Assembly (NCBI GenBank): GCA_902595635.1
Contig: CACJQT010000003.1
Location: 1-64,000, forward strand
DNA: 64,000 nt
Source: an uncultured Pelagibacteraceae bacterium
GTDB lineage: Bacteria > Pseudomonadota > Alphaproteobacteria > Pelagibacterales > Pelagibacteraceae
Direction: 5' to 3'
Of the stretch, positions 7,922 to 33,697 are shown piece by piece. Below the pieces are notes generated by a model, which was not told the origin of the DNA, did no database searches, and was given only the letters and a program-made list of their open reading frames with translations. The translations under genes were made by a program, and so were the position numbers. Numbering within the stretch: position 1 is the stretch's first letter; each line of letters begins with the position of its first letter.

Positions 7922-8703
7922 TGAAAAGAATTCTTATAGTTGAAGGTAACCTTAGAGAAGAAAATCAAAGCTTTACAGATGGTGGAATTAAAACTCATAC
8001 TGAAAGTTTAAAAGATAGTATTAGTTATTTTACAGATCAATTAGAAATTGATGTTGTTAATCCATCATCAGATGAAAATATTAATGAAGTAGCTAAAGAT
8101 TTAACTAAATATCATGGAATGATATGGGGTGGTAGTAGTTTAAATATTTACAATGATACTCCAGAAATAAGAAGACAAATAAACTTTATGAGGGAATGTC
8201 AAAAGAATATAAAAAACATATTCGCAATATGTTGGGGAATGCAAGTTGCTGTGACCGTTGCTGGCGGTGAAGTAAAGAAATGCCCTAATGGTGCTCACAG
8301 GGGAATAGCTCATGATATAGAAATAAATGAAAACGGACTTAAACACCCACTTTATAAAAATAAAAATAAAAAATTTAATACTCCTGCGTTTAATTTTGAT
8401 GAAGTTGTAAAATTACCTGAGGGCTCTACATTACTTTCATCAAATCCTATAAATAAAGTCATGGGTATAAATTTTAATGTTGGTTCAACGAATGTATGGG
8501 GAATACAATATCACCCAGAGATAACTTATGCCAAAATGATAAGCTTAATTCATTTTAGGAGAGATCGACTTTTAGAAAAAAAAGCATTTATTGACCAAAT
8601 GGAAATAGACTCTCATGTAAAAATTATAGAAGATGAAAATAAAATTTCAAATAAAGATGCAAGGATGAGAGAATTAGAAAATTGGCTAAATAATTTAAAT
8701 TAG
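7921..8703 (+). CDS. Class I glutamine amidotransferase-like protein
   Basis: Single-domain GATase1-fold protein of 260 aa. The nucleophile elbow '[12 protein letters not shown]' supplies the catalytic Cys near residue 101 and '[12 protein letters not shown]' near 196 supplies the His-Glu pair, so the triad looks complete. Stand-alone members act as glutaminase partners or hydrolyse gamma-glutamyl compounds; no synthetase domain is fused here. It is translationally coupled to the Fe-ADH gene, which suggests a shared pathway, and its 3' end overlaps fhs by 4 nt tail to tail. A role in gamma-glutamyl-amine turnover next to methylamine genes is conceivable but unproven. Confidence 0.8.
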
Positions 8704-10379
8704 AACAAGCCTTCTATTTCACCTTTTTCATTAAGCTTAATAGAGTCTGCTGCAGGAACTCGAGGAAGTCCTGGCATTGTCATGATGGCTCCACATATAA
8801 CAACAATAAATTCTGCACCTGAAGATAATCTTACTTCTCTAATTGGTAATGAATGGCCTGTTGGAGCACCTTTTGCGTTTGGATCAGTAGAAAAACTATA
8901 TTGTGTTTTCGCTACACATATAGGTAAATTTCCATAACCCGCTTCTTCAAAAGATTTTAATTGATCTTTTATTTTACTGTCAGCAACAACTTCGTTTGCT
9001 CGATAAATTTCTTTTGCAACAGTTTCAACTTTCTTTAACAAAGGTGTTTTTTCATCATATAAAAATTTAAAATTTGCTTGTTTTTGATCAATCAAATCTA
9101 CAACATGTGAAGCAAGTTCTTTTGTTCCTTCTCCACCATTTGACCAATGAGTGCATAAAGTAGCTTTAACTCCCATATTATCACAAGCATTTATTAACTC
9201 TTTTACCTCATTATCAGTATCAGCAATAAAATGATTAACAGCAACTGCTACTGGTAAACCAAATTTTTTTACGTTTTCAATGTGTCTTTCTAAATTTACT
9301 AAACCTTTTTTTAGCGCTTCTACATTTTCATTTTTTAAATCATCTTTAGCTACACCGCCGTGCATTTTTAATGCTCTGATTGTTGCAACAATAACTACAC
9401 ACTCAGGTTTTAAATTTGATTTTCTACATTTAATATCTAAAAATTTTTCTGCTCCTAGGTCTGCTCCAAATCCAGCTTCAGTTACAACATAATCAGCTAG
9501 TTTTAAACCTGCTTTAGTTGCTATTACAGAGTTACAACCGTGCGCAATGTTTGCAAAAGGACCACCATGAATAATTGCTGGATTATTTTCTAACGTTTGA
9601 GTTACGTTAGGCCTAATTGCTTCTTTTAACAAAACAGTCATTGGTCCGTGGGCATTTAAATCTTTCGCAAAAATAGGCTTTCTATCTCTAGTATAAGCAA
9701 CTGTAATATTACCGATTCTCTTTTCCAAATCTTCAAGATCATTTGCTAAACAAAAGATAGCCATTATCTCAGATGCTACTGTAATATCAAAACCATCTTC
9801 TCTTGGAAAACCATTCGCAACTCCACCCAAATTAATATTGATAGATCTTAAAGATCTATCATTCATATCCATAACTCTTCTCCAGACTACTCGTCTTACA
9901 TCTATGTTTAATTTATTTCCCCAATAAATATGATTATCAATTAACGCTGACAATAAATTGTGAGCAGATGTAATTGCATGGAAGTCTCCTGTGAAATGTA
10001 AATTGATTTGTTCCATTGGAACAACTTGAGCATATCCACCACCTGCTGCTCCGCCTTTCATTCCAAACGAAGGACCTAAACTAGGTTCACGTAAACACAC
10101 TATAGAATTTTTACCAATTTTATTTAATCCATCATTTAAACCAACTGACGTAGTGGTTTTTCCCTCACCTGCAGGAGTTGGCGTAATAGCAGTAACTAAA
10201 ATTAATTTTCCATTTTGTTTATCTTTTAAACTATCTAAATATTCTAAATTTATTTTAGCAATATGACGTCCCATAGGGCTAAAAGCACTTGGTTCATCTG
10301 GAACATTAATTTTACCCAAAATCTCATTTATGGGTTTCATTTTTGCTTCTCTTGCAATTTGGATATCTGATTTTGACAT
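8700..10379 (-). CDS. fhs: Formate--tetrahydrofolate ligase
   Basis: Reversible ATP-dependent interconversion of formate plus THF and 10-formyl-THF. The 559-aa length matches the family (about 555-560). The ATP-binding loop '[16 protein letters not shown]' lies near residue 67. '[25 protein letters not shown]' follows, quoted here only as recognition of the conserved family block near 95-120, with 'HFTGDFHAI' after it. In SAR11 one-carbon metabolism Fhs is considered able to run toward formate and ATP when methyl groups are oxidised. It is transcribed divergently from soxB across a 121-nt AT-rich gap, next to tmm, Fe-ADH and the sarcosine oxidase genes that supply C1 units. Confidence 0.97.
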
Positions 10380-10500: not shown

Positions 10501-11757
10501 ATGCAGAAATATTCAGTATTTAGTCTAATCAAAAATGCTTTTTCCAATCATCAAAATTGGGAAGTTGCTTGGAAAGATCCAACTCCAAAAAGTGAATATG
10601 ATGTAGTCATCATTGGAGGCGGAGGACACGGTCTTGCTACTGCATATTATTTAGCAAAAGAACATAACATTAGAAATGTAGCTATCATTGAGAAAGGCTG
10701 GATTGGTGGTGGAAATGTTGGTCGAAATACAACTATCATAAGATCAAATTTTATGTACGATGCTAATGCAAGATTCAATGAATTTGGAATGGATTTATGG
10801 AGAAACTTAAGTCAAGAACTGAACTTTAATGTGATGTTTTCTCCAAGGGGAATAATAAACTTAGCCCACTCAGATGCTCAAATGAACGCATATGCTCGTA
10901 GAGGAAATTCTATGAGATTAAATGGAATAGATGCAAAGTTATTGGATAGAGACGAAGTTAAAAAATTAATTCCAATGGCTGACTTTAGTGATGAAGTACG
11001 TTTCCCAATTTTTGGAGGATTAATGCAACCAAGCGCTGGTACCGCAAGACATGACGCTGTTGCTTGGGGTTATGCACGTCAAGCAGATGATATGGGAGTA
11101 GATATAATACAACATTGTGAGGTCACTGGTTTTGATGTTGTTAATGGAAAGATAAAAGGAATTAGAACTTCAAGAGGAGATATTAAAGCAAAAAAAGTTG
11201 GATTATGTGTTGCAGGTAGCACAAATATATTAGCTGAAAAATTAAATATGACACTACCAATAGAAACTCATGTACTGCAAGCTTGTGTTTCAGAACCTGT
11301 AAAACCATTATTAGACGGAGTAGTAACTTTTGGTGCAGGTCACTTTTATATAAGTCAATCAGATAAAGGTGAGATGGTAATGGGTGGTGATCTTGATGGA
11401 TATAATAGTTATGCTCAAAGAGGTAACTTGCCAACTATACAACATGTATTGACAGGTGGCTTAGCTTTGTTTCCATTTTTAAGTAGATTAAAAATGTTAA
11501 GGACATGGGGAGGTATCATGGATATGTCCATGGATGGTTCTCCAATAATTGATAAAACTCATATTGAAGGTTTATATTTAAACTGCGGATGGTGTTATGG
11601 AGGTTTTAAATCAACTCCTGTCTCAGGTTGGACATTTGCTCATACAATTGCACAAGATCAAGTTCATGAATTAAATTCAGAATTAAGATTAAATAGATTT
11701 TCTACAGGCCATCTTTTAGATGAAAAAGGTTTAGGAACTAAAACCTGGATTGGTTAA
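10501..11757 (+). CDS. soxB: Sarcosine oxidase, beta subunit
   Basis: FAD/FMN-bearing catalytic subunit of heterotetrameric sarcosine oxidase, which demethylates sarcosine to glycine and passes the methyl group to THF. The 418-aa protein has the dinucleotide-binding motif 'DVVIIGGGGHGLATAYYLA' near residue 34, 'GWIGGGNVGRNTTIIRSNF' near 72 and a DAO-type C-terminus 'GLYLNCGWCYGGFKSTP'. It is first in the canonical soxBDAG order and is separated from soxD by 2 nt. The start has no strong Shine-Dalgarno, but upstream codons are not available because the region is AT-rich with stops. Confidence 0.97.
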   Translation: MQKYSVFSLIKNAFSNHQNWEVAWKDPTPKSEYDVVIIGGGGHGLATAYYLAKEHNIRNVAIIEKGWIGGGNVGRNTTIIRSNFMYDANARFNEFGMDLWRNLSQELNFNVMFSPRGIINLAHSDAQMNAYARRGNSMRLNGIDAKLLDRDEVKKLIPMADFSDEVRFPIFGGLMQPSAGTARHDAVAWGYARQADDMGVDIIQHCEVTGFDVVNGKIKGIRTSRGDIKAKKVGLCVAGSTNILAEKLNMTLPIETHVLQACVSEPVKPLLDGVVTFGAGHFYISQSDKGEMVMGGDLDGYNSYAQRGNLPTIQHVLTGGLALFPFLSRLKMLRTWGGIMDMSMDGSPIIDKTHIEGLYLNCGWCYGGFKSTPVSGWTFAHTIAQDQVHELNSELRLNRFSTGHLLDEKGLGTKTWIG

Positions 11758-11759
11758 AA

Positions 11760-12029
11760 ATGTTATACATCAAATGTCCTTATTGCGGTTTAAGAGCACA
11801 AAAAGAATTTTCATATGGAGGTGATGCAACTGTAAAAAGACCTAATATAAATGAAGAAGTATCAAGTGAAGATTGGGATAATTTTGTTTATATGAGAAAA
11901 AGTCCAAGAGGGAAACATATAGAGTTATGGCAACATATAGCTGGATGTAGACAATGGATTAAGGTGCAAAGAGACACTGCTACACACGAAATTTTCCAAA
12001 CAGCAAAAGTCACAGAAGAAATAAGATGA
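11760..12029 (+). CDS. soxD: Sarcosine oxidase, delta subunit
   Basis: Small zinc-binding subunit of heterotetrameric sarcosine oxidase, 89 aa. The Cys pair 'IKCPYCGLR' near residue 6 and the later 'HIAGCRQW' near residue 59 supply the His/Cys metal ligands known for this subunit. It stabilises the complex rather than catalysing the reaction. The gene overlaps soxA by 4 nt (ATGA), as expected for a tightly coupled operon. Confidence 0.95.
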   Translation: MLYIKCPYCGLRAQKEFSYGGDATVKRPNINEEVSSEDWDNFVYMRKSPRGKHIELWQHIAGCRQWIKVQRDTATHEIFQTAKVTEEIR

Positions 12030-15022
12030 GCCAACCATTTAGATTAAATAAAGAGGGATTAATTAATCGAAACAAAAAAATATCTTTTACTTTTAATGGT
12101 AAAAAATTATTTGGATATGAAGGTGATACAATTGCATCTGCTTTAATAGCAAATGGAATACACTTGGTCGGTAGAAGTTTTAAATATCATAGACCGAGAG
12201 GTTTTTTTGGTGCAGGAGTAGAGGAGCCAAACGCAAAACTACAAGTAGAATTCAATGGTCATTCAGAACCTAATGTTAATGCAACAGAAATGGAACTCGT
12301 TGAAGGTTTATCAGCTACTAGCCAGAATTGTTGGCCATCAGTTAATTTTGATATTGGTGCAATTAATAATTTTTTAAAAATGTTTTTCCCTGCAGGGTTT
12401 TATTACAAAACATTTATGTGGCCTAAAAGTTTCTGGTATAAAATTTACGAACCTTTCATAAGAAAAGCTGCAGGTTTAGGGGTTGCTTCAATAGAAAAAG
12501 ATAAAGAAAGATATGAACATAAATTTGAGTATTGTGATTTGTTAGTTACTGGATCTGGACCATCTGGATTAGCAAGCGCTTATGCTGCTGCAAAAAATGG
12601 AGCAAAAGTAATTTTAGCTGAAGATAAACCAAGATTTGGAGGAACACTTTTAACCGACGATGTAAGCATCGATAATTTATCAGGAAAAGATTGGGCAGAA
12701 AAAATAATTACTGAATTAAAATCTATGCCTAATGTAACTGTAAAAAATAGATCTCAAGTTTTTGGTTACTATGATCATAATATGCTGGTTATGTTTGAGA
12801 GAGTTAGTGATCATTTAGAGAAAAAATCAAAATTCACTCCAAGACAAAGACTTTGGTATATTAGAGCCAAAGAAACAATTTTATCAACGGGATCAATTGA
12901 AAGACCAATTGTATTTGGAAACAATGATACTCCTGGAATTTTTTTATCAGCAGCTGCAAAAGAATATATGAAAGTCTACGGAGTTTTAGTAGGAAAAAAA
13001 CCTTTAATATTTACAAATAACGATAGTGCATATGAAACAGCTTTAGAGTTTAAAAAAAATAATGTTGAACCAATTATATTAGATACAAGAGAAGAACATT
13101 CATCAGAATTAATCGATGAAGCTAAATCAAAAGGAATTGACATAAGATTTTCTCACGGTGTTATTGTTGCTAATGGATACAAAAAAGTTAAATCTGCAAA
13201 AATTGGTAAACTGAATAAAGATAAAAATTCTTTTGAGAAAATAGAAACGGTAGATTGTGATTGCATTTGCGTGTCTGGATTTTGGACACCATCTGTACAT
13301 TTAGCATCACAATCAGGAAATAAACTTAAGTATGAAGAAAAAATTGATGCATTTATTCCAGATAAGAAAAAACAACACGAGACCTCAGTTGGTGCAGCAA
13401 ATGGATCTTTTACTTTAGAAGAAAGTTTAAAAAATGGTTTTGAAAATGGTTCAAATCTTTCTGCTAAAATTACAGATACTAAAACAGAAATTGCAATTCC
13501 AAATGTAAATGAAAAAAAATATGGTGTTCATGATAAGTTTTGGTGCATGCCATTACCTAAAAATGAAAATCCAAAAAGATTTGTTGATTTTCAAAATGAT
13601 GTATCTGTTTCAGATATAGAAATTGCACTAAGAGAAGGTTACAGATCAATAGAGCATGTCAAAAGATATACAACTCTTGGAATGGCAACAGATCAAGGGC
13701 GTACAAGTAATTTAAATGGTCTTCAGTTGGTATCTAATATAGAAAATAAAATAGTTCCTGAAGTAGGACACACAACATTTAGACCACCTTTCACTCCAAT
13801 TACTATCGGGACAATAGTTGGTCGTGAAGTAGGTATGGAATATATGCCGACTAGAAAAACTCCAATGCATGAATGGCATGAGAAAAATAATGCTGTTTTT
13901 GTTGATGCAGGTGCTTGGAAGAGGCCTCGATATTACAAACAAGGTAATGAAACTTTATTTGAAGCTTCAAAGAGAGAGGCAAAAAATGTTAGAGAGAACG
14001 TCGGTATCTGCGATGTAACAACATTAGGAAAAATTGATATCAAAGGTCCAGACGCAGCAGAATTTTTAAATAGAGTTTATACTAATGCTTGGATGAAATT
14101 ACCTGTTGGAAAAGCAAGATATGGATTAATGCTTAGAGAAGATGGAATTGTCATGGACGATGGAACAACAACAAGAATTTCAGAAAATCATTATCATATG
14201 ACTACTACAACAGCACAAGCTGCGAATGTTTTATCTCACTTAGAATATTATCTTCAAATTGTTTGGCCTGAATTAAATGTAAACGTCGTTTCTACAACTG
14301 AGCAATGGGCAGGAGCCGCAATTGCAGGACCTAAATCAAGAGACATATTATCAAAATTATATCCAGACCTAGACGTATCAAATAATGCTTTGCCTTTTAT
14401 GGGCTATAAAGAAGCAGAATTTTTTGGTGTTCCGTCAAGAATTTTTAGAATTTCATTTTCTGGTGAGCTTGCATATGAGATTAATGTCAAATCAGATCAT
14501 GGCATGTTCATGTGGGAGAAAATGATGGAAGTAGGAAAAGAATTTGGAAATCAGCCTTACGGAACTGAAGCTTTATCAACATTAAGAATTGAAATGGGAC
14601 ACGTTGCAGGACCAGAATTAGATGGCCGAACAATCCCATCAGATGTTTCATTAAATGGATTAGTTTCAAAGAAAAAAGATTTTATTGGCAAAAATTCTTT
14701 AGGAAGAGAAGCATTTAATGTTGAGAGCAGACAAAAAATTGTTGGACTTATTCCAATTGATAGAAAGTCTAGTATTCCTGAAGGATCTCATATCGTCCAA
14801 GATCAGAATGCAAAATTACCAAACCCTAAACTTGGCCATGTTTCTTCTTCTTGTTGGAGTGTAGAAAATAATAATCCATTTTCACTAGCAATTATGAAAG
14901 ATGGAAAAAATATGATAGGTAAAAAGTTTTTTGCGGTATCACCATTAAAAAATAAATCAATTGAAGTAGAAGTTATTTCTTCTCATTATGTTGATCCTGA
15001 AGGAAAAAGAGTTAGATCATGA
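12026..15022 (+). CDS. soxA: Sarcosine oxidase, alpha subunit (with C-terminal GcvT/folate domain)
   Basis: 998-aa subunit with an N-terminal ferredoxin-like plug domain ('GYEGDTIASALIANG', 'GRSFKYHRPRGFFG', residues about 15-100), a pyridine-nucleotide-disulphide-type domain starting at 'LLVTGSGPSGLASAY' near 172, and a GcvT-type THF-binding domain from about residue 600 ('EASKREAKNVRENVGICDV'). The C-terminal domain transfers the oxidised methyl group of sarcosine to THF as 5,10-methylene-THF. The length matches the family. It overlaps soxD and soxG by 4 nt each. Its product links methylamine breakdown to the neighbouring fhs gene. Confidence 0.97.
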   Translation: MSQPFRLNKEGLINRNKKISFTFNGKKLFGYEGDTIASALIANGIHLVGRSFKYHRPRGFFGAGVEEPNAKLQVEFNGHSEPNVNATEMELVEGLSATSQNCWPSVNFDIGAINNFLKMFFPAGFYYKTFMWPKSFWYKIYEPFIRKAAGLGVASIEKDKERYEHKFEYCDLLVTGSGPSGLASAYAAAKNGAKVILAEDKPRFGGTLLTDDVSIDNLSGKDWAEKIITELKSMPNVTVKNRSQVFGYYDHNMLVMFERVSDHLEKKSKFTPRQRLWYIRAKETILSTGSIERPIVFGNNDTPGIFLSAAAKEYMKVYGVLVGKKPLIFTNNDSAYETALEFKKNNVEPIILDTREEHSSELIDEAKSKGIDIRFSHGVIVANGYKKVKSAKIGKLNKDKNSFEKIETVDCDCICVSGFWTPSVHLASQSGNKLKYEEKIDAFIPDKKKQHETSVGAANGSFTLEESLKNGFENGSNLSAKITDTKTEIAIPNVNEKKYGVHDKFWCMPLPKNENPKRFVDFQNDVSVSDIEIALREGYRSIEHVKRYTTLGMATDQGRTSNLNGLQLVSNIENKIVPEVGHTTFRPPFTPITIGTIVGREVGMEYMPTRKTPMHEWHEKNNAVFVDAGAWKRPRYYKQGNETLFEASKREAKNVRENVGICDVTTLGKIDIKGPDAAEFLNRVYTNAWMKLPVGKARYGLMLREDGIVMDDGTTTRISENHYHMTTTTAQAANVLSHLEYYLQIVWPELNVNVVSTTEQWAGAAIAGPKSRDILSKLYPDLDVSNNALPFMGYKEAEFFGVPSRIFRISFSGELAYEINVKSDHGMFMWEKMMEVGKEFGNQPYGTEALSTLRIEMGHVAGPELDGRTIPSDVSLNGLVSKKKDFIGKNSLGREAFNVESRQKIVGLIPIDRKSSIPEGSHIVQDQNAKLPNPKLGHVSSSCWSVENNNPFSLAIMKDGKNMIGKKFFAVSPLKNKSIEVEVISSHYVDPEGKRVRS

Positions 15023-15597
15023 AAAATGTTTCTGCACTAGAAAATATTCATAAACATGGATTGTTTGGCAATCACGATAGTAAAGATGAGCTAATAAATA
15101 TTAGAGAAATCAAAGATATTTTGATTTATCAGATTGTTAAATATAAAAAATCTTTAATTAGTATTGATAAAATAAAAATAGATAATTTAAATTTACCCCA
15201 GACTCTTTTGGTATCTTCAAATCTTAATACAAGAATTTTATGGATGGGACCTGATAATTGGTTAGTCGTTTCAAAGAATAAAGAAATAGAAAAATCTATT
15301 TTAGAAAACCTAAGTCATGATGATTTTGCATTAACTGATCTATCTCATTCAAGAACAATACTTGAATTAGAAGGTTCTTTGGTAGATGAAGTATTGAAAA
15401 AAGGTTGTCCATTAAATTTAGATGGCCTTGATGAAGGGAAATGTTCTAATTCTGCTTTTCATGCAATTACAATAACTATTGATTTTATTAGTTCAAATCC
15501 AAGAAAAGTAAGAATATTCGCTTTAAGAAGTTTTGGTGAATCTCTTTATCATTCAATAACTGATGCTTGTTTAGAATTTGGCTATAAAGCTGAATAA
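15019..15597 (+). CDS. soxG: Sarcosine oxidase, gamma subunit
   Basis: 192-aa subunit that completes the sarcosine oxidase heterotetramer. Gamma subunits are short GcvT-related proteins with weak conservation; here the 'RILWMGPDNWLVVS' stretch near residue 73, 'LTDLSHSRTILELEG' near 112 and 'LRSFGESLYHSI' near 173 fit the family. The call rests on these plus its position, overlapping soxA by 4 nt. It ends 3 nt before the convergent MFS transporter. Confidence 0.9.
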   Translation: MKNVSALENIHKHGLFGNHDSKDELINIREIKDILIYQIVKYKKSLISIDKIKIDNLNLPQTLLVSSNLNTRILWMGPDNWLVVSKNKEIEKSILENLSHDDFALTDLSHSRTILELEGSLVDEVLKKGCPLNLDGLDEGKCSNSAFHAITITIDFISSNPRKVRIFALRSFGESLYHSITDACLEFGYKAE

Positions 15598-20450: not shown

Positions 20451-21419
20451 ATGAATTATCGAATTGATAATCTTCAGTATTGTAAATGGTCTAGAGAAAT
20501 CTTTGAAATAAATAATAAAGCTGGATTGAATGCAGTTCACGTAACGTTAGTTTATCATGAAGACTATGATGAATTTCAACAAAGAATAAAAGAGTGGAAT
20601 AAACATTTCGAAGAAAATAAAGATCTTATATTTCTAGGCAATAACTACAATGATATTACAAAAGCAAAAGAAGAAAACAAAACTGCAATTTTTTTTGGAT
20701 TTCAAAATTGTTCACCAATTGAAGACGACATAGCTCTTATAGAAAAAGTACACTCACAAGGTTGTCGATTTATGCAATTAACTTATAACAACCAATCATT
20801 ATTAGCCACTGGATGTTATGAAAAAAATGATAGCGGAGTTACAAATTTTGGAAAAGAGGCTATTAAAGAAATGAATAGAGTAGGTATCGTTGTTGACATG
20901 TCTCATTCAGCAGAGAAAAGTACACTTGATGCAATTGCAATTAGTCAAAAACCAATTGCGATCACTCATGCAAATCCAACTTTTTGGTTTGAAGCAAAAA
21001 GAAATAAATCTACAGAATTATTAAAAGTTTTATCCGATAGTGGAGGAATGTTAGGATTGTCATTGTATGCTCATCACTTAAAAGATGGAACGAATTGTAA
21101 AATAGAAAGTTTTTGTGAAATGGTTGCAAGAACAGTTGAAATTATGGGTATTGATAATGTTGGAATAGGATCAGACTTATGTTTAAACCAGCCAGACAGT
21201 GTAGTTGAATGGATGAGAAATGGAACTTGGTCAAAATCAAAAAATTTTGGCGAAGGTAGTAAAGATAAACCTGGTTTTCCAAAACAACCAGATTGGTTTT
21301 TGGATGCAAGAGGATTTAATAATATAAACACAGAACTAAAAAATAAAGGTTTTCACGAAGAAGAGATAAATAAGATACTTGGCAATAACTGGTTTAATTT
21401 TTATAAAGGAATTAATTAA
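20451..21419 (+). CDS. Divergent M19 (renal/membrane dipeptidase)-family amidohydrolase
   Basis: 322-aa protein of the peptidase M19 fold. 'VVDMSHSAEKSTLDAI' (near 148), 'PIAITHANPT' (near 171) and 'VGIGSDLC' (near 233) match the C-terminal metal/substrate loops of renal dipeptidase. The canonical N-terminal HxD zinc motif is replaced by 'RIDNLQYCKWSREIF', typical of a distinct subgroup. It may therefore bind one metal, or act on something other than dipeptides. The gene shares one base with the 550-aa unknown gene and probably forms an operon with the DUF3726-like and zinc-ribbon genes. Confidence 0.8.
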   Translation: MNYRIDNLQYCKWSREIFEINNKAGLNAVHVTLVYHEDYDEFQQRIKEWNKHFEENKDLIFLGNNYNDITKAKEENKTAIFFGFQNCSPIEDDIALIEKVHSQGCRFMQLTYNNQSLLATGCYEKNDSGVTNFGKEAIKEMNRVGIVVDMSHSAEKSTLDAIAISQKPIAITHANPTFWFEAKRNKSTELLKVLSDSGGMLGLSLYAHHLKDGTNCKIESFCEMVARTVEIMGIDNVGIGSDLCLNQPDSVVEWMRNGTWSKSKNFGEGSKDKPGFPKQPDWFLDARGFNNINTELKNKGFHEEEINKILGNNWFNFYKGIN

Positions 21420-23071
21420 TGCAAGTTCCACTAAGAGATCCTAAAATTGTAATGAAACTTTCTAGGCTTGGATCTTTTCATCAATCTAAATTATCTTTTC
21501 TAAGATCATTTTTAAATGAGTTCAAAGATTGGAAATATAACAGAGATTTTTTTGATTTGAATGATAGGGGATATGGAGTAGCTGTTTATTCATTTTCAAA
21601 AGATAAAAAAACATATTCTTTAGTTTGTTTTGCTAATGAGCTTAAAGATGAGGAAAGATCTGATAGAGTAATAGCAACTAAATGGGATGCTGCATTTGCT
21701 TTGTATGATGGCATTCCTTCAAAAATTGATATTGATAGACTTTCACAAAATGTCCCTAAACAAGAAGTAGGGAGACTTTCTTATAAAGAACTAACTCTCT
21801 CAAGAGCAAATAGATCAGTTAGAGCATTTAATTATGTGGTCGAGTGTTTATCAAAAGGTATCCAGCCCAATACTAATGAGCTTTCAAAAGTTGGATACTT
21901 GTACAGAACAACTGCAGTATATGGCTCAGGAAAATTTGGATTAGCAGACAGGTTTAGAATTAAAAATAGAGATGAAATTAATGGTCCTTTTAGATTGGAA
22001 ATGATGTTAGTTTACCTTGTAAGACAATTTACTTTCGATCAAGTCAATCATATAGCAAAACATAAAAATCCTAAAGATGCTGTAGAACTGGACTTGGATA
22101 TTTGCAGAAATTTAGGAATTGGTAATTCAACTGGATTGGGAATGGCACCATTTATTGTAAACCACCCTTCATTGTTAAATAATTGGATTCTAGCTAAAGA
22201 AACAGCTTTAAAAAAAATAAGAGAAATAGAAAAAGTATCAGAAGAAGAGTTTAAAATTTTTTACAACTGTTTAACAAAATCTTTAAAAAATGTAACTTCA
22301 TGGAATACTGATAGTGAATATCAAAAGAAGAAAATTGAGAATTTAATTAATGATTTACAAAATTTAATCAATTATTTGAAAGACAATATTCATAAATCAA
22401 ATTTTTATATATTCGACAAATTATACAATTGGGCGGAGGAAAATTTATCCGAAGAAGGAGTTGAGTATTTGGTTTCTATAATGATGGAGCCATATAATAA
22501 AATAACTGATCCTTTAATTTCTCAAATGAGTTCAGACGAGGATAGTAGTTTTAATATACCTGTAGACAGAACTATAAATGACCTAAGAGAAATAATTGAA
22601 AAAAATTATTCAGATATTTTAAAAATTGATTTTTCAAAAAATGAAAATAATAAAAAATTTTGGTTCATTTCAAAAAATAAAGAAGAACCTAGGATTGGAG
22701 ATCGGTTTGAAGATAATGGCTCAGAACTTGAGCAGCCTACAGCTATTGCTAGAGATATTAAAAAACTTTATGAAACTATTTTTACATTAAAAAACAGCTT
22801 AAAGATTGGCAATTTTCTAGTACAGAACAATGATTTAAGACATATTGTAAGAAGAGTGTTTATAACAGAGAAATATCCATATTCTGAAATTCAAGATAAC
22901 ACCATTGGCTCAAAATTAGTTCCTATTGATATGTTAAGACTTAAACTATCTTTTTTTGGGGCGGTAAAGTTTGATCCAAGATCTGACAAATGGTTAAGGA
23001 TTTGTATGTTTCAAGGAGCTCCATTACCAAATGAACTAAATTCATTTAATCAATATTGGATATATAACTAA
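21419..23071 (+). CDS. Uncharacterised 550-aa protein in M19/DUF3726 operon
   Basis: I cannot assign a named family. The protein looks soluble, with no signal peptide or TM helix. The N-terminal half (about 1-270) is compact and Arg/Asp-rich, with blocks such as 'FDLNDRGYGVAVYSFSK' and 'RTTAVYGSGKFGLADRF' and a Gly-rich 'CRNLGIGNSTGLGMAPFIVNHP' near 236, which could be a phosphate- or nucleotide-binding loop. Residues about 275-350 look helical or coiled-coil. The C-terminus includes 'NDLRHIVRRVFITEKYPY'. It is translationally coupled to the M19-like gene and lies 8 nt upstream of the DUF3726-like gene. Confidence 0.85.
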   Translation: MQVPLRDPKIVMKLSRLGSFHQSKLSFLRSFLNEFKDWKYNRDFFDLNDRGYGVAVYSFSKDKKTYSLVCFANELKDEERSDRVIATKWDAAFALYDGIPSKIDIDRLSQNVPKQEVGRLSYKELTLSRANRSVRAFNYVVECLSKGIQPNTNELSKVGYLYRTTAVYGSGKFGLADRFRIKNRDEINGPFRLEMMLVYLVRQFTFDQVNHIAKHKNPKDAVELDLDICRNLGIGNSTGLGMAPFIVNHPSLLNNWILAKETALKKIREIEKVSEEEFKIFYNCLTKSLKNVTSWNTDSEYQKKKIENLINDLQNLINYLKDNIHKSNFYIFDKLYNWAEENLSEEGVEYLVSIMMEPYNKITDPLISQMSSDEDSSFNIPVDRTINDLREIIEKNYSDILKIDFSKNENNKKFWFISKNKEEPRIGDRFEDNGSELEQPTAIARDIKKLYETIFTLKNSLKIGNFLVQNNDLRHIVRRVFITEKYPYSEIQDNTIGSKLVPIDMLRLKLSFFGAVKFDPRSDKWLRICMFQGAPLPNELNSFNQYWIYN

Positions 23072-23079
23072 AGTAATTA

Positions 23080-23688
23080 ATGAGAAGTTATAGTGAAATT
23101 GACACGATTGTTAAACGTTCAACAAAAGCGAAAGGTTTCTCTTGGGGAGTTGCAGAAGAAATAGGAAAGAACATCAAGCAACTCGAGTTATTTGGTTTAC
23201 CAGGAATAAAACATATAAACCAATATTTTAAGATTTTTAATAATGAGAAGTTTGAAAATTGCCAATCTTTTAACAAAAGCAACAGACCTCAAAACTTTTA
23301 CTGTCCAATTAAACTTGGATTAAGTTTTTTTGATCAATCTATCTCTATCCAAGAACTAAATGATATAGAAATTGAAAAAATGGCTTACCCATTGATATTT
23401 TTGCCGTTTGTCAGCAGATCTTCGGAAATAACAGGAAAGAGAATTTTTTTAAAGATAGATCAAAAAGAATTTTTATTAAATTTCAATCAATCAATTTATT
23501 CAAATTATTTAAGTAGTGAGGTTGTAGAAAAAGCTGATGTAATTAAAATCCAATTCTTAGAAAACAAGAATAATTTTTCCGAAGAAGATTGGAAAGAATT
23601 AACAAAATTATCTGAAAACACATTTGTTGAAGAAACAGATGAGTTAAAACAAAAAACCGCAGGAGCAGGATTAACAGATAATGACTGA
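23080..23688 (+). CDS. DUF3726-like protein
   Basis: 202-aa protein of unknown function. The N-terminal pattern 'SYSEIDTIVKRSTKAKGFSWGVAEEIGKNI' (shortened recognition: residues 3-32) fits the DUF3726 family, whose members open with an '(A/S)xxKAaxGaGxsWGlAEEaG' theme. No catalytic motif is evident to me. It shares 8 nt with the downstream 55-aa zinc-ribbon ORF and follows the 550-aa gene closely, so the four genes appear cotranscribed. The DUF assignment comes from memory of the pattern and needs a profile search. Confidence 0.72.
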   Translation: MRSYSEIDTIVKRSTKAKGFSWGVAEEIGKNIKQLELFGLPGIKHINQYFKIFNNEKFENCQSFNKSNRPQNFYCPIKLGLSFFDQSISIQELNDIEIEKMAYPLIFLPFVSRSSEITGKRIFLKIDQKEFLLNFNQSIYSNYLSSEVVEKADVIKIQFLENKNNFSEEDWKELTKLSENTFVEETDELKQKTAGAGLTDND

Positions 23689-23848
23689 TAACTTTGAATA
23701 TAAATCGGACAAATCAGATAAAAATGAATTAAATGATATTTGTGATGAATGTAAAAAAGAAGATGAGACAGTAACTCAAAATTTAATACTCACAGGATAT
23801 AAACTTTGTAACTCCTGCAGAACATCTAAAACTTTATTTCCGCTTTAA
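23681..23848 (+). CDS. Small zinc-ribbon-like protein (55 aa), absent from ORF track
   Basis: ATG at 23681 overlaps the end of the DUF3726-like gene by 8 nt and the TAA is at 23846-23848. The translation has an acidic/Lys N-terminus followed by two Cys pairs, 'DICDECKKED' and 'KLCNSCRTSK', spaced by about 17 residues. This is a four-Cys zinc-ribbon or rubredoxin-like knuckle. The overlap with the upstream gene, the paired CxxC motifs and native-like codon use support a real gene. It ends in a 4-nt convergent overlap with the YIP1-like gene. It may be a metal-binding partner of the operon's enzymes. Confidence 0.72.
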   Translation: MTDNFEYKSDKSDKNELNDICDECKKEDETVTQNLILTGYKLCNSCRTSKTLFPL

Positions 23849-24535: not shown

Positions 24536-25891
24536 TCACTTACTGACTACTTCTCTTGTATTTGCGTTGTAAGACTCTGTAAATGGAATATCAACTACAA
24601 CTGCATCAACTGGCTCCCCAGGTTTATCAGAATATTTTTCTGGTAGGTGGACTTTAAATTTCGATCCAACTTTACCTCTTGGAAAACCATTTGCATTCAG
24701 CGTGCCATCAAAAGGTACATATCCCATAGCAATATTTTTCCCTTTTTCTGGGTGATACCAAGGAGAAGTTACAAATCCTACAGGCTCACTGCCATTTTCT
24801 GAAATTAACCAAAAATCTGGAGCGTATTCTTCAATAGGTTTTCCTCCTAATTCAAGTCCAACTAATTGAAGCTTGTAAGGTTTATGACCTGCTTTTAAAT
24901 CAGCTTTCATTTTCTCGAGGGCTTTTTTACCAACATAATCACCTTTTTTGTTCCATTCACCTTTTCCAGATAAAGAAACTTGATATCCAAGATTACATTG
25001 AAAAGGATTATGCTCATGATCCATATCTTGTCCCCATGAAAGAATTCCAGCCTGAATTCTTCTATGGTGAGCAGGAGCAATCACCATTAAGTTATGTTTT
25101 TTACCTGCTTCAAGAACAGCATTCCACATATCTTCGGCATATAAAGTTGCTTCTCTTAAATATATTTCAAATCCAGACTCGCCTGAAAAACCTGTTTGAG
25201 AAATAATACAACTTCTTCCACCAACTTTTGCAGACGCCAAACCGTAAAAAGGCATGTTGTCTATGTCAACTTCACTTCCACAAAGATCTTTCATTAAAGC
25301 TTTTGCTTTAGGACCTTGAATTTGTACAGGACAAGCATCTATTTCATTAATTTGAACATTAAACCTTTCATCTGCATTTACTCCTTGCAGATATAATCCA
25401 ATATCACTATCTGATAAACTAAACCAAAATTCATCTTTAGATATTCTTAAAAGAATAGGATCATTTAATACTCCTCCGTATGCATTACACAGAATTACAT
25501 ATCTTCCTCTCATTGGAGAAATTTTTGTAGCATCTCTTGTAATTACATAATCAACAAATTTTTCTGCATCTGGTCCTTTAACTTGTATTTGTCTTTCAAC
25601 AGCAACATTCCACATTGTTACATGATTTTTAATTGCCTCGTACTCAACCATTGCACCACCATCTTCAGGTTTTACATAACCTCTTGGATGATAAATTCTG
25701 TTATAAACAGTTGCTCTCCAACATCCTGCTTTCATAGATAAATGCCAGTATGGAGATTTCCTTACTCTTGTTGATATTAGCATCTCAACTTTAGTAGGTC
25801 CGCTTTGTCTTAAATTGTATGGTACTTTTCTATCAGACTGATCTACTGATGTTGTATGTCTTAGTTTACTATAGTCAAATTCATTAGACAT
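24536..25891 (-). CDS. DmdA-like GcvT-family THF-dependent methyltransferase/demethylase
   Basis: 451-aa aminomethyltransferase-fold protein. The central region follows DMSP demethylase closely: 'VTMWNVAVERQIQVKGPDAEKF' (residues about 90-111), 'GGVLNDPILLRISKDEFWFSLSDSD' and 'DIDNMPFYGLASAKVGG'. It also has an extra N-terminal segment of about 45 residues and a longer C-terminus than the roughly 369-aa DmdA. It is therefore best read as a DmdA paralogue moving a methyl group from an unknown methylated N, S or O substrate to THF. The gene overlaps the MetF-like gene by 8 nt, which would process the resulting methyl-THF. Confidence 0.82.
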   Translation of the reverse strand: MSNEFDYSKLRHTTSVDQSDRKVPYNLRQSGPTKVEMLISTRVRKSPYWHLSMKAGCWRATVYNRIYHPRGYVKPEDGGAMVEYEAIKNHVTMWNVAVERQIQVKGPDAEKFVDYVITRDATKISPMRGRYVILCNAYGGVLNDPILLRISKDEFWFSLSDSDIGLYLQGVNADERFNVQINEIDACPVQIQGPKAKALMKDLCGSEVDIDNMPFYGLASAKVGGRSCIISQTGFSGESGFEIYLREATLYAEDMWNAVLEAGKKHNLMVIAPAHHRRIQAGILSWGQDMDHEHNPFQCNLGYQVSLSGKGEWNKKGDYVGKKALEKMKADLKAGHKPYKLQLVGLELGGKPIEEYAPDFWLISENGSEPVGFVTSPWYHPEKGKNIAMGYVPFDGTLNANGFPRGKVGSKFKVHLPEKYSDKPGEPVDAVVVDIPFTESYNANTREVVSK

Positions 25892-26716: not shown

Positions 26717-27934
26717 ATGGAAAATAAATTATCTCAAATTACAGAATTATTCTCCAAAACAAGACAACAAACTCTATCCCTGTGCGAGAACTTAGAGGCT
26801 GAGGATATGGTAATACAGCCCAGCAAAAATGTTAGTCCTCTTAAGTGGCATCTTGGTCACACCACATGGTTCTTCGAAAAATTCATCTTGTCAGAATTGG
26901 ATGAAAGTTACAAACCTTTTAACAAAGATTATAACTACATATTTAATTCGTATTATAATTCTGTAGGTGAGTACAATCCTCGAAATAAGAGAGGTTCACT
27001 AAATAGACCCATCTTAAAAGATGTTGTAAAATATAGACATTATGTAACTGAAAATATTATTGATTTTTTAAAAAGGACAAAAAATAACAGGACATCATTT
27101 TTAGTTGAACTAGGTTCAAATCACGAACAACAGCATCAAGAATTAATGTTAATGGATATTAAAAATATTTTTTACAACAATCCATTGATGCCGACTTATA
27201 ATTCTAACGATGATAAACCAACCGCTAAAGAAGAAAATGAATTGACATTAAAAACTAGTAAAAAATTTAAATATGGAAACAACGAGGATATTTTTTGTTA
27301 CGATAACGAATTACCAGTATCAGAAACACAATTAGATCCTTTTAAAATTTATTCATTTATTACTAATGGAGAATGGAAAGAATTTATTAATGATGGAGGA
27401 TATAAAAATCATGAGTATTGGTTATCTGATGGATGGGATTTTGTAAATAATAACAAATTAGAAAAACCAATGTATTGGATAGATAATAATAATTATTTTA
27501 CATTAAACGGTGTAAAAAAAATTGATAATGAAAAGCCAGTTTCTCATATAAGTTTCTATGAAGCGGATGCTTTTGCAAGATACAAAAACAAAAGATTACC
27601 AACTGAATTTGAACTAGAGTATTTTTTAAAACAATCTGAAAAAAAAGGTAATTTTTTAGAGAATAAAATTTTTCATGAAGTAGAAGAAAAAGCAGACGAT
27701 GTTTATGGAAATTTATGGGCTTGGACCTGTAGTAATTACACACCTTACAAAAAATACAAACCATATGAAGGAAATCTAGGAGAATATAATAATAAGTTCA
27801 TGTGTAATCAGTTTGTCCTAAAAGGTGGCTCACATTCTACATCTATTAATCATGTCAGAGCATCTTATAGAAATTTCTTTTACCCAAGTGATACTTGGCA
27901 GTTTTGTGGTGTCAGACTAGCTGATGACATCTAG
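26717..27934 (+). CDS. egtB: Ergothioneine biosynthesis sulfoxide synthase
   Basis: Non-haem iron enzyme that oxidatively couples a thiol to hercynine. The 405-aa protein has an N-terminal DinB-type domain with 'LKWHLGHTTWFFEKF' near residue 43 and the iron-binding HX3HXE motif 'NHEQQHQELMLMDI' near 132. The C-terminal formylglycine-enzyme-like domain shows 'KPVSHISFYEADAFARYKNKRLP', 'YGNLWAWTCSNYTPY' and 'CNQFVLKGGSHST'. The separate adjacent methyltransferase argues for EgtB rather than OvoA, in which the methyltransferase is usually fused. Its TAG overlaps the egtD GTG start by one base. Confidence 0.93.
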   Translation: MENKLSQITELFSKTRQQTLSLCENLEAEDMVIQPSKNVSPLKWHLGHTTWFFEKFILSELDESYKPFNKDYNYIFNSYYNSVGEYNPRNKRGSLNRPILKDVVKYRHYVTENIIDFLKRTKNNRTSFLVELGSNHEQQHQELMLMDIKNIFYNNPLMPTYNSNDDKPTAKEENELTLKTSKKFKYGNNEDIFCYDNELPVSETQLDPFKIYSFITNGEWKEFINDGGYKNHEYWLSDGWDFVNNNKLEKPMYWIDNNNYFTLNGVKKIDNEKPVSHISFYEADAFARYKNKRLPTEFELEYFLKQSEKKGNFLENKIFHEVEEKADDVYGNLWAWTCSNYTPYKKYKPYEGNLGEYNNKFMCNQFVLKGGSHSTSINHVRASYRNFFYPSDTWQFCGVRLADDI

Positions 27935-28896
27935 TGACTAATTTAAAATTAATAAACATAAACAATCAAATTCAAGATGATAAAAAATTAATCTTACAAG
28001 GATTATTAAATAAAAAACAAAAATATTTACTACCTAAATATTTTTATGATGAAAAAGGTTCGAGGTTATTTAATAAAATTACAAACCTCAAAGAATATTA
28101 CCCAACAAATAAAGAGTTAGGAATACTAGGTAACTTACAAAAAGAAATAAGAAAGAAATTACCAATTAATTCAACAATTGTAGAATTTGGTAGTGGCTCA
28201 AATAAAAAAATTAATAAATTTATAAAATCATTAAGTGAGCCCAAAGAATACATTCCTATAGATATTAGCAAGGAATATTTGTTTGAAAATGCATCAATAA
28301 TTGCAAAAAAATTCTCAGATTTAAAAGTAACTGCAATATGTGCAGACTTTAGTCAGACAAATAAATTAAATAAAATTTTAAAAAATAAAAAAAAAATTGT
28401 CAGTTTTTTTCCAGGATCGACCATAGGAAATTATTTACCTAAAAATGCAACAAAAATACTTAAAAATTTTTCAAAAATTATAGGCAAAAATTCTTATTTA
28501 GTAATTGGGGTAGATTTAATCAAAAATAAGAAGACTCTTGAAAATGCTTACAATGATAAATTGGGAGTTACAGCTAAATTTAATAAAAATATATTAAATG
28601 TAGTAAACAAAATTTGTAATTCTAATTTTCAAACTAAGAATTTTGATCATAAAGCATTCTACAATTTAAAAAAAAATAGAATTGAAATGCATCTTATTTC
28701 AAAAAAAAATTTCACGTTAAAAATTAATAAAAAGAATATAAAATTTAATAAAAACGAAACTATTCATACTGAAAATTCTCACAAATATTCAAAAAATAAC
28801 TTTGTTAAATTAGTTAACAAATCAGGCTTTAAAGTTTTAAAACATTTTACAGATAAAAGAAATTATTTTGGAGTTTTTTTATTAAAAGTGAAGTAA
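27934..28896 (+). CDS. egtD: L-histidine N-alpha-methyltransferase
   Basis: SAM-dependent trimethylation of histidine to hercynine, the first step to ergothioneine. The 320-aa protein starts at a GTG overlapping the egtB stop. It has 'KYFYDEKGSRLFNKITNLKEYYPTNKE' (around residues 36-62), the hallmark of this family. The SAM-binding strand is 'STIVEFGSGSNKK' near 79, followed by 'EYIPIDISKEYL' near 103, 'SFFPGSTIGNYLP' near 157 and C-terminal 'IEMHLISKKNF'. It is Lys/Asn-rich, even for this genome. Together with egtB it forms a two-gene ergothioneine core; egtC and egtE are not adjacent. Confidence 0.93.
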   Translation: MTNLKLININNQIQDDKKLILQGLLNKKQKYLLPKYFYDEKGSRLFNKITNLKEYYPTNKELGILGNLQKEIRKKLPINSTIVEFGSGSNKKINKFIKSLSEPKEYIPIDISKEYLFENASIIAKKFSDLKVTAICADFSQTNKLNKILKNKKKIVSFFPGSTIGNYLPKNATKILKNFSKIIGKNSYLVIGVDLIKNKKTLENAYNDKLGVTAKFNKNILNVVNKICNSNFQTKNFDHKAFYNLKKNRIEMHLISKKNFTLKINKKNIKFNKNETIHTENSHKYSKNNFVKLVNKSGFKVLKHFTDKRNYFGVFLLKVK

Positions 28897-32344: not shown

Positions 32345-33697
32345 ATGGATGGATGTTGTGGTCCTGGATATGCTAGTCCTGCAGAAGCAATAAAAGCACC
32401 AAAAGAAAAGCTTTTATATACTATAGCTATTTACACAGGGACAGGAATACAAAAACCAGATTACTTAGCAACAGTCGATGTTGATCCTCAAAGTCCTACT
32501 TATTCTAAAGTAATTCATAGACTTGAAATGCCAGGTATTGGTGATGAATTGCATCATATGGGATGGAATGCATGTTCTTCTTGTCATGGCGACTCAAAAA
32601 TGAGCAGAAAATATTTATTAGTTCCAGGTGTTAGATCAAATAATATTTATGTTGTTGATACTGCATCCGATCCTAGAGCTCCAAAAATACATAAAGTAGT
32701 AGATGGATCTGAAATAAAGAAAAAAACTAATTTATCAGGACCACACACAGTTCATTGCTTAGGTTCTGAAATTATCATTTCTTTTCTTGGAGACGCTCGA
32801 GGAGAAGCACCAGGAGGATATTTACATTTAAATAAAGATTTTGAAATTGTAGGTAGGTGGGAAAATTCAATGGGAGACATACCTTTTAGTTATGACTTCT
32901 GGTACCAGCCAAGACATAATGTAATGGTTAGTTCTGAGTGGGCTGCCCCAAATACTTTCATGCCTGGATTTGATTTAGAGGAAGTTGGTCATTTGAAATA
33001 TGGTAGACGACTTCATGTTTGGGATTTTAAAAAAAAAGAGCCAGTTCAAACAATGTATTTAGGTGAAGACGGTTTAATACCTTTAGAAGTAAAATTTATG
33101 CATAATCCTGACAGTAGTCATGGATTTTGTGGTGCAGCGCTAAGTGCAAATGTAATTCATTTTTGGAAATCAAAAGAGGGAAAATGGGAATGGGAAAAAA
33201 TAATTGATGTTGAAAATGAACCACATCCTGATTGGCCAATCCCTGTACCTGGAGTTATGTCAGCGATATTAGTTTCAATGAATGATAAATATCTCTATAT
33301 AAATAATTGGCTTCATGGAGATATGAGGCAATACGATATTTCAGATCCGCACAAACCTAAATTAACTGGTCAAGTTTGGATGGGTGGATTGTTAGGAAAG
33401 GCTCCAGAAGTAAATGGTGTTAAAATTGCTGGTGGACCTCAAATGTATCAATTATCTTTAGATGGCAAAAGGATGTATGTAACAACATCATTATTTTCTA
33501 CTTGGGATAATCAATTTTATCCTGAAATTAGAAAACAAGGTGGAGCAATGATTATGATTGATTGTGATGTTGAAAATGGAGGAATGAAAATTAATAAAGA
33601 TTTTATTGTTGATTTTGGTAAAGAACCAAATGGACCTAGTAGGTGCCATGAAAGTAGATATCCAGGTGGAGATTGCACAAGCGACATCTGGCTATGA
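32345..33697 (+). CDS. mtoX: Selenium-binding protein SBP56 family, probable methanethiol oxidase
   Basis: 450-aa beta-propeller protein of the SBP56/MtoX family. The N-terminal 'DGCCGPGYASPAEAI', 'YLATVDVDPQSPTYSKVIHR', 'GDELHHMGWNACSSCHGD' (residues about 64-81, His/Cys metal region) and 'SGPHTVHCLGSEI' are conserved. Bacterial MtoX oxidises methanethiol to formaldehyde, H2O2 and sulfide, relevant to DMSP demethylation in SAR11. A clear AAAGGAG Shine-Dalgarno precedes the ATG. There is no Sec signal, unlike the periplasmic Hyphomicrobium enzyme. It overlaps a ferredoxin gene by 4 nt, suggesting a redox partner. Confidence 0.85.
   Translation: MDGCCGPGYASPAEAIKAPKEKLLYTIAIYTGTGIQKPDYLATVDVDPQSPTYSKVIHRLEMPGIGDELHHMGWNACSSCHGDSKMSRKYLLVPGVRSNNIYVVDTASDPRAPKIHKVVDGSEIKKKTNLSGPHTVHCLGSEIIISFLGDARGEAPGGYLHLNKDFEIVGRWENSMGDIPFSYDFWYQPRHNVMVSSEWAAPNTFMPGFDLEEVGHLKYGRRLHVWDFKKKEPVQTMYLGEDGLIPLEVKFMHNPDSSHGFCGAALSANVIHFWKSKEGKWEWEKIIDVENEPHPDWPIPVPGVMSAILVSMNDKYLYINNWLHGDMRQYDISDPHKPKLTGQVWMGGLLGKAPEVNGVKIAGGPQMYQLSLDGKRMYVTTSLFSTWDNQFYPEIRKQGGAMIMIDCDVENGGMKINKDFIVDFGKEPNGPSRCHESRYPGGDCTSDIWL

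Follow-up and report, generated by a model that had tools for sequence, protein, structure and literature searches.

The N-methylglutamate dehydrogenase genes mgdABCD were described in a study of trimethylamine regulation (PMC13390433, 2026), which located them in R. pomeroyi (SPO1585-1588) next to tmaR, a regulator of the AraC type, and reported tmaR-mgd pairs also in strains that lack the upstream trimethylamine genes. The same paper states that Mgd takes part in the catabolism of homarine, citing a report of a conserved pathway (Ferrer-Gonzalez et al. 2026, Nat Microbiol 11:1531); that pathway is known here through the citing paper. Homarine (N-methylpicolinate) is an abundant phytoplankton osmolyte (PMC12817926).

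Here, we describe an operon in a 64,000-nucleotide stretch of DNA (referred to as the window) from an uncultured SAR11 bacterium of the Pelagibacteraceae and compare it with described systems. The homarine operon is reportedly named homABCDER. Homarine contains six skeletal carbons and an N-methyl group, and N-methylglutamate contains five. The trigonelline pathway of Acinetobacter (tgnABCDE) is similar in that the ring of an N-methylpyridinium carboxylate is opened, followed by an aldehyde dehydrogenase (ALDH) and a hydrolase. It differs in using a flavin monooxygenase pair, whereas the candidate ring-opening proteins of the window match no such family, and in its end products.

A four-gene operon and its proteins

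The operon consists of four plus-strand genes at positions 20451-23848. It is real, and its recurrence is far beyond chance: the same gene order was observed in other SAR11 genomes at protein identities of 50-80%. ORF coordinates reproduced exactly the spacing given in a preliminary description of this DNA, with a 1-nt overlap between genes 1 and 2, an 8-nt gap between genes 2 and 3 and an 8-nt overlap between genes 3 and 4.

The first gene (20451-21419, plus strand) encodes a 322-aa protein of the Peptidase_M19 family (PF01244, E-value 7e-72, 242.6 bits against a gathering score of 26). It is clearly homologous to M19 membrane dipeptidases (3id7, 1itq) and to the nearest solved structure, 2i5g, an "amidohydrolase" (E-value 1e-58). 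The protein had been described as lacking the N-terminal HxD motif and keeping the later His/Asp loops, and alignment to 3id7 agreed on both points, the retained loops being DMSH, THAN, RN and GSD. In addition, the bridging Glu is replaced with Gln (FGFQN versus MGAEGG in 3id7) and the next His with Tyr (LTYNN versus LTHND). These two changes are also present in 2i5g, which shares the FQN sequence at the bridging position, and thus represent a feature of the subgroup. HxD, the bridging Glu and the later His/Arg/Asp positions are established metal ligands of the M19 family; without HxD and the bridging Glu, the SAR11 protein does not have the binuclear zinc site of membrane dipeptidases. We propose it as a putative N-formyl or amide hydrolase.

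The second gene (21419-23071, plus strand) encodes a conserved 550-aa protein, designated B550. As previously noted, it lies outside known families: no Pfam or NCBIfam family was matched, and PDB sequence searches with both the protein and its profile gave no credible match. Its Gly-rich GIGNSTGLG loop, which had also been pointed out, is almost invariant among homologs. The invariant residues include a single His, many Arg and no Cys, and no cofactor motif was recognized among the conserved residues. The predicted structure was good (pLDDT 85.6, pTM 0.88) and had no clear fold match in PDB (no Foldseek hit with E ≤ 0.001, best Z of 3.8 in a second look), an absence that does not prove a new fold. 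Homology of B550 to Ldh_2 or DUF3726 was also searched for and not found.

The product of the third gene (23080-23688, plus strand; 202 aa) does belong to DUF3726, as had been suggested (PF12525, E-value 3e-18, 65.8 bits against a gathering score of 22.1). A PDB sequence search with its profile yielded no credible match. Its structural model (pLDDT 90) aligned over about 160 residues with 15 Ldh_2 entries at Z scores of 9.0-10.7, the next unrelated entry having a Z of 3.9. The top 20 Foldseek hits were all Ldh_2, though with E-values of only 0.006 or worse, and a profile comparison (hhalign) gave a weak, in-register match (E-value 4e-4). The model thus points to the fold of Ldh_2 enzymes, such as type II malate/lactate dehydrogenases and delta1-piperideine-2-carboxylate reductase (1wtj). 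In contrast to these, DUF3726 has lost approximately 120 residues from the middle of Ldh_2, lacks a full-length cofactor domain, has the catalytic SHG replaced and carries a conserved C-terminal tail, GAGAGLxDND. Judged from the model, DUF3726 has a miniature version of the Ldh_2 fold that lacks the catalytic His. Because the tail is conserved yet was of low confidence when the protein was folded alone, the modeling suggests that it may dock on B550. In a Natrinema species (a haloarchaeon), the protein in the DUF3726 position (L165:13713-14663) is longer and looks intermediate between Ldh_2 and DUF3726; this haloarchaeal relative scored 36.2 bits against PF02615, just under the cutoff of 38.8.

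The fourth gene (23681-23848, plus strand), a 55-aa micro-protein with two CxxC pairs that resembles a zinc ribbon, also proved to be real and conserved in SAR11. Among 113 SAR11-type loci, it was detected in 94; its Cys residues were invariant and it had a conserved SKTxFP end. Pfam matches to ZZ or C4 families were sub-threshold and no confident family name could be given. The protein occurred only in the genus of the window (25 of 61 relatives, none in SAR11 family f2). It was also seen in five SAR11 assemblies (G016, G020, G021, G029 and G036) in which B550 was not detected, although these assemblies may be incomplete. Since it occurs where B550 was not found, the protein may not be strictly tied to the pathway. 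Its role in SAR11 is probably accessory or regulatory.

Distribution and gene partners of the module

B550 was present in 42 of the 61 relatives, although two of these matches were weak (E-values of about 1e-4), and in 58 of the 387 genomes sampled from the class. Phylum-wide, 38 of 397 genomes had it, with three families outside the class among them; it was also seen in one haloarchaeon. To describe its partners, we used a class-wide sample of 54 loci, 52 of them outside the SAR11-like family f27; non-SAR11 loci from named organisms were taken from plasmid records. An M19 gene was located within 6 kb of B550 in 46 of the 54 loci, and DUF3726 was detected by BLAST in 46 as well; in nearly all loci, the ORF directly 3' of B550 had a DUF3726-type N-terminus. 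M19 and B550 distances were correlated (r=0.86; 0 of 2000 shuffles). Genes 1-3 form a module found across Alphaproteobacteria, in some other Pseudomonadota and in one haloarchaeon. Co-conservation in other genomes, which the preliminary description had made its refuting test, thus holds widely for these three genes, and it does not extend to gene 4, which is confined to one SAR11 genus.

B550 and DUF3726 are adjacent almost everywhere, and in Mesorhizobium a single 814-aa protein combines the two by fusion. This pairing supports the earlier idea of a multi-subunit enzyme as far as these two proteins are concerned, and we consider them a putative two-subunit enzyme.

Additional partners recur. 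Among the 54 loci, 17 had an ALDH (at least 50% identity), 22 an Ldh and 13 a betaine-type transporter; transporters near the module were often of this type (BCCT, glycine-betaine ABC genes). The recurrent order outside SAR11 was LysR, ALDH, M19, (BCCT), B550, DUF3726, Ldh. Alpha-ketoglutaric semialdehyde dehydrogenases are the nearest relatives of the ALDH of the module, in keeping with a C5 semialdehyde. The operon in the window contains no ALDH, Ldh or transporter gene, and a close ALDH ortholog was not found in SAR11. In Phaeobacter inhibens DSM 17395, the module occurs twice on plasmid pPGA1_262 (L160 and L167), once beside mgd and once beside dmdA.

A divergent B550/DUF3726/M19 branch was present mostly in rhizobia (L164:13716-17390, L169, L159), accompanied by IclR, a polyamine-type ABC transporter, an aminotransferase and another ALDH. 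These different partners suggest that this branch probably acts on another substrate. We found no published function for DUF3726 or for the S. meliloti genes of this branch in the literature.

Neighboring genes for N-methylglutamate dehydrogenase

An mgdABCD set is located on the plus strand 4.9 kb upstream of the operon. It comprises mgdA (SoxB-like, 10501-11757), the proposed functional partner of the operon; mgdB (SoxD-like small subunit, 11769-12029; Pfam SoxD, E-value 3e-34); mgdC (SoxA-like large subunit, 12026-15022); and mgdD (SoxG-like, 15019-15597), which scored below the NCBIfam cutoff. Next to it, a formate--tetrahydrofolate ligase is encoded on the minus strand (8700-10379). The sox-like neighbors of the module were annotated as sarcosine oxidase, a name that we dropped in favor of Mgd on the basis of gene context and phylogeny. 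The roseobacter beta subunit was 79% identical to the Paracoccus copy flanked by gmaS-mgsABC and only 51% identical to the soxB copy flanked by glyA. In a maximum-likelihood tree, the window copy (10501-11757) grouped with Mgd with full support. Thus, within the N-methylglutamate dehydrogenase/heterotetrameric sarcosine oxidase family, 10501-15597 falls in the Mgd clade, whereas SAR11 keeps a second copy that groups with SoxB.

Similar linkage was seen in Ruegeria TM1040 and Phaeobacter, in which mgdABCD-AraC-LysR lies beside ALDH-M19-BCCT-B550-DUF3726(-Ldh). Mgd genes were adjacent to or near the module in these two and in genome G114. Among the 54 class loci, mgd lay near the module in only 3. 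Within the genus of the window, an Mgd copy was present in 12 of 13 B550-positive and 2 of 7 B550-negative genomes (Fisher p 0.007), a co-occurrence that is weak by itself, given the physical linkage of the genes and the incompleteness of some genomes. For SAR11 family f2, which has the module, an mgd ortholog was not found; all three loci read had gmaS upstream of the module, and two of them also had a convergent ALDH. The GmaS-like protein of these loci is a type III glutamine synthetase (L217:6486-7823; also L218 and L224).

The window also contains a gene similar to DMSP demethylase (24536-25891). Its score of 237 bits, under the NCBIfam dmdA cutoff of 410, places it in a divergent clade. 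The ergothioneine genes egtB-egtD (26717-28896) adjoin the pair formed by this dmdA-like gene and a methylene-THF-reductase-like gene. An SBP56/methanethiol-oxidase-like protein (32345-33697) occurs in the same window as the dmdA-like gene; it had a Pfam E-value of 3e-207 and scored far below the NCBIfam MtoX cutoff.

A candidate homarine module and alternative functions

With a probability of roughly two in three, we interpret the operon as the form taken in SAR11 by a module that catabolizes homarine or a ring carboxylate very similar to it and likewise N-methylated. What we observed directly is that the module is conserved, which genes accompany it, that mgd lies nearby and that B550 is paired with DUF3726; from these we infer the substrate and every reaction of B550, DUF3726, M19, ALDH and Ldh, with moderate support for the pathway. 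Judging from the citing paper, Mgd would be used both here and in the homarine pathway, and the five enzyme genes plus LysR that stand beside mgd in roseobacters would fit an operon of five genes plus R. Compared with that arrangement, the SAR11 operon is missing ALDH, Ldh, transporter and LysR genes at the locus and includes a zinc ribbon in addition.

In the proposed route, B550 with its partner DUF3726 would attack and open the N-methylpyridinium ring, leaving one ring carbon on the nitrogen as a formyl group; B550, as the main subunit, and DUF3726 are cast in this role because they are left over once the other steps are assigned. The ALDH, which is in the operon outside SAR11 and, in the genus of the window, would be supplied from elsewhere, would then oxidize the C5 semialdehyde, and the M19-like protein would hydrolyze the N-formyl (amide) bond. 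An Ldh-family reductase, where present, may reduce the imine or enamine. Finally, mgdABCD would convert N-methylglutamate to glutamate and a C1 unit, and the released formate could be used by the formate--tetrahydrofolate ligase beside mgd. A more far-reaching proposal, to which we give somewhat less than even odds, is that B550 and DUF3726 form an unrecognized type of two-subunit enzyme, composed of a large subunit whose fold matches none known and a shortened relative of Ldh_2 that is itself non-catalytic and supplies, through its conserved tail, the missing part of the active site. Such an enzyme would open N-methylpyridinium rings by unusual chemistry, and its substrates would differ between roseobacters, rhizobia and haloarchaea; SAR11 would have added a zinc ribbon specific to its lineage.

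Several observations count against homarine: no mgd ortholog was found in f2 despite the module, few class loci have mgd close to it, the operon of the window comes without ALDH, Ldh or transporter, dmdA-like neighbors are present in several lineages, and a divergent rhizobial branch has other partners. It is conceivable, though unlikely, that the substrate of the module is a different betaine or N-heterocycle (e.g., trigonelline, a proline betaine or an N-methylated amino acid) and that methylamine is released from it, the link to mgd running via gmaS-mgs-mgd. The f2 loci, with gmaS upstream and mgd not found, would suit methylamine release, and the transporters near the module vary. However, SAR11 genome G311 (99% complete) has both the module and mgd, and neither gmaS nor mgsC was found in it, so that a source of N-methylglutamate other than methylamine would be needed; moreover, in roseobacter loci mgd directly accompanies the module, with no gmaS or mgs in the stretch shown.

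A role in DMSP or glycine betaine metabolism appears very unlikely, as both pathways are generally known to operate without these genes. Although dmdA-like genes adjoin the operon in the window, in f27 genomes and in one Phaeobacter copy, and betaine transporters occur, linkage to dmdA was limited to a minority of module loci, and the majority had no dmdA above the aminomethyltransferase background of ~20-27%. We give hardly any credence to the idea that the three genes serve to process peptides or some compound other than a betaine and that their neighbors reflect general osmolyte islands: M19 proteins include dipeptidases and the rhizobial branch has polyamine-type transporters, but the metal ligands required by M19 dipeptidases are lost, and the ALDH/Ldh/BCCT partners recur across families.

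The preliminary description had envisaged a new metal-dependent small-molecule pathway. A small-molecule pathway is supported; metal dependence is not, since three canonical metal ligands are missing from the M19-like protein, and the invariant residues of B550 include just one His and no Cys. Nor is the pathway likely to be new, given that PMC13390433 cites a 2026 publication of a homarine pathway in which Mgd is used: the operon is probably a member of this newly described pathway rather than a categorically new system.

The comparison with Ldh_2 gives DUF3726 a concrete evolutionary origin. If the homarine assignment is true, B550/DUF3726 would represent an enzyme type to which neither a fold nor a reaction family is assigned here. 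SAR11 ranks with the ocean's most abundant groups of bacteria, and homarine is plentiful as an osmolyte of phytoplankton; a SAR11 homarine route, if true, would therefore tie a major metabolite to a major consumer.
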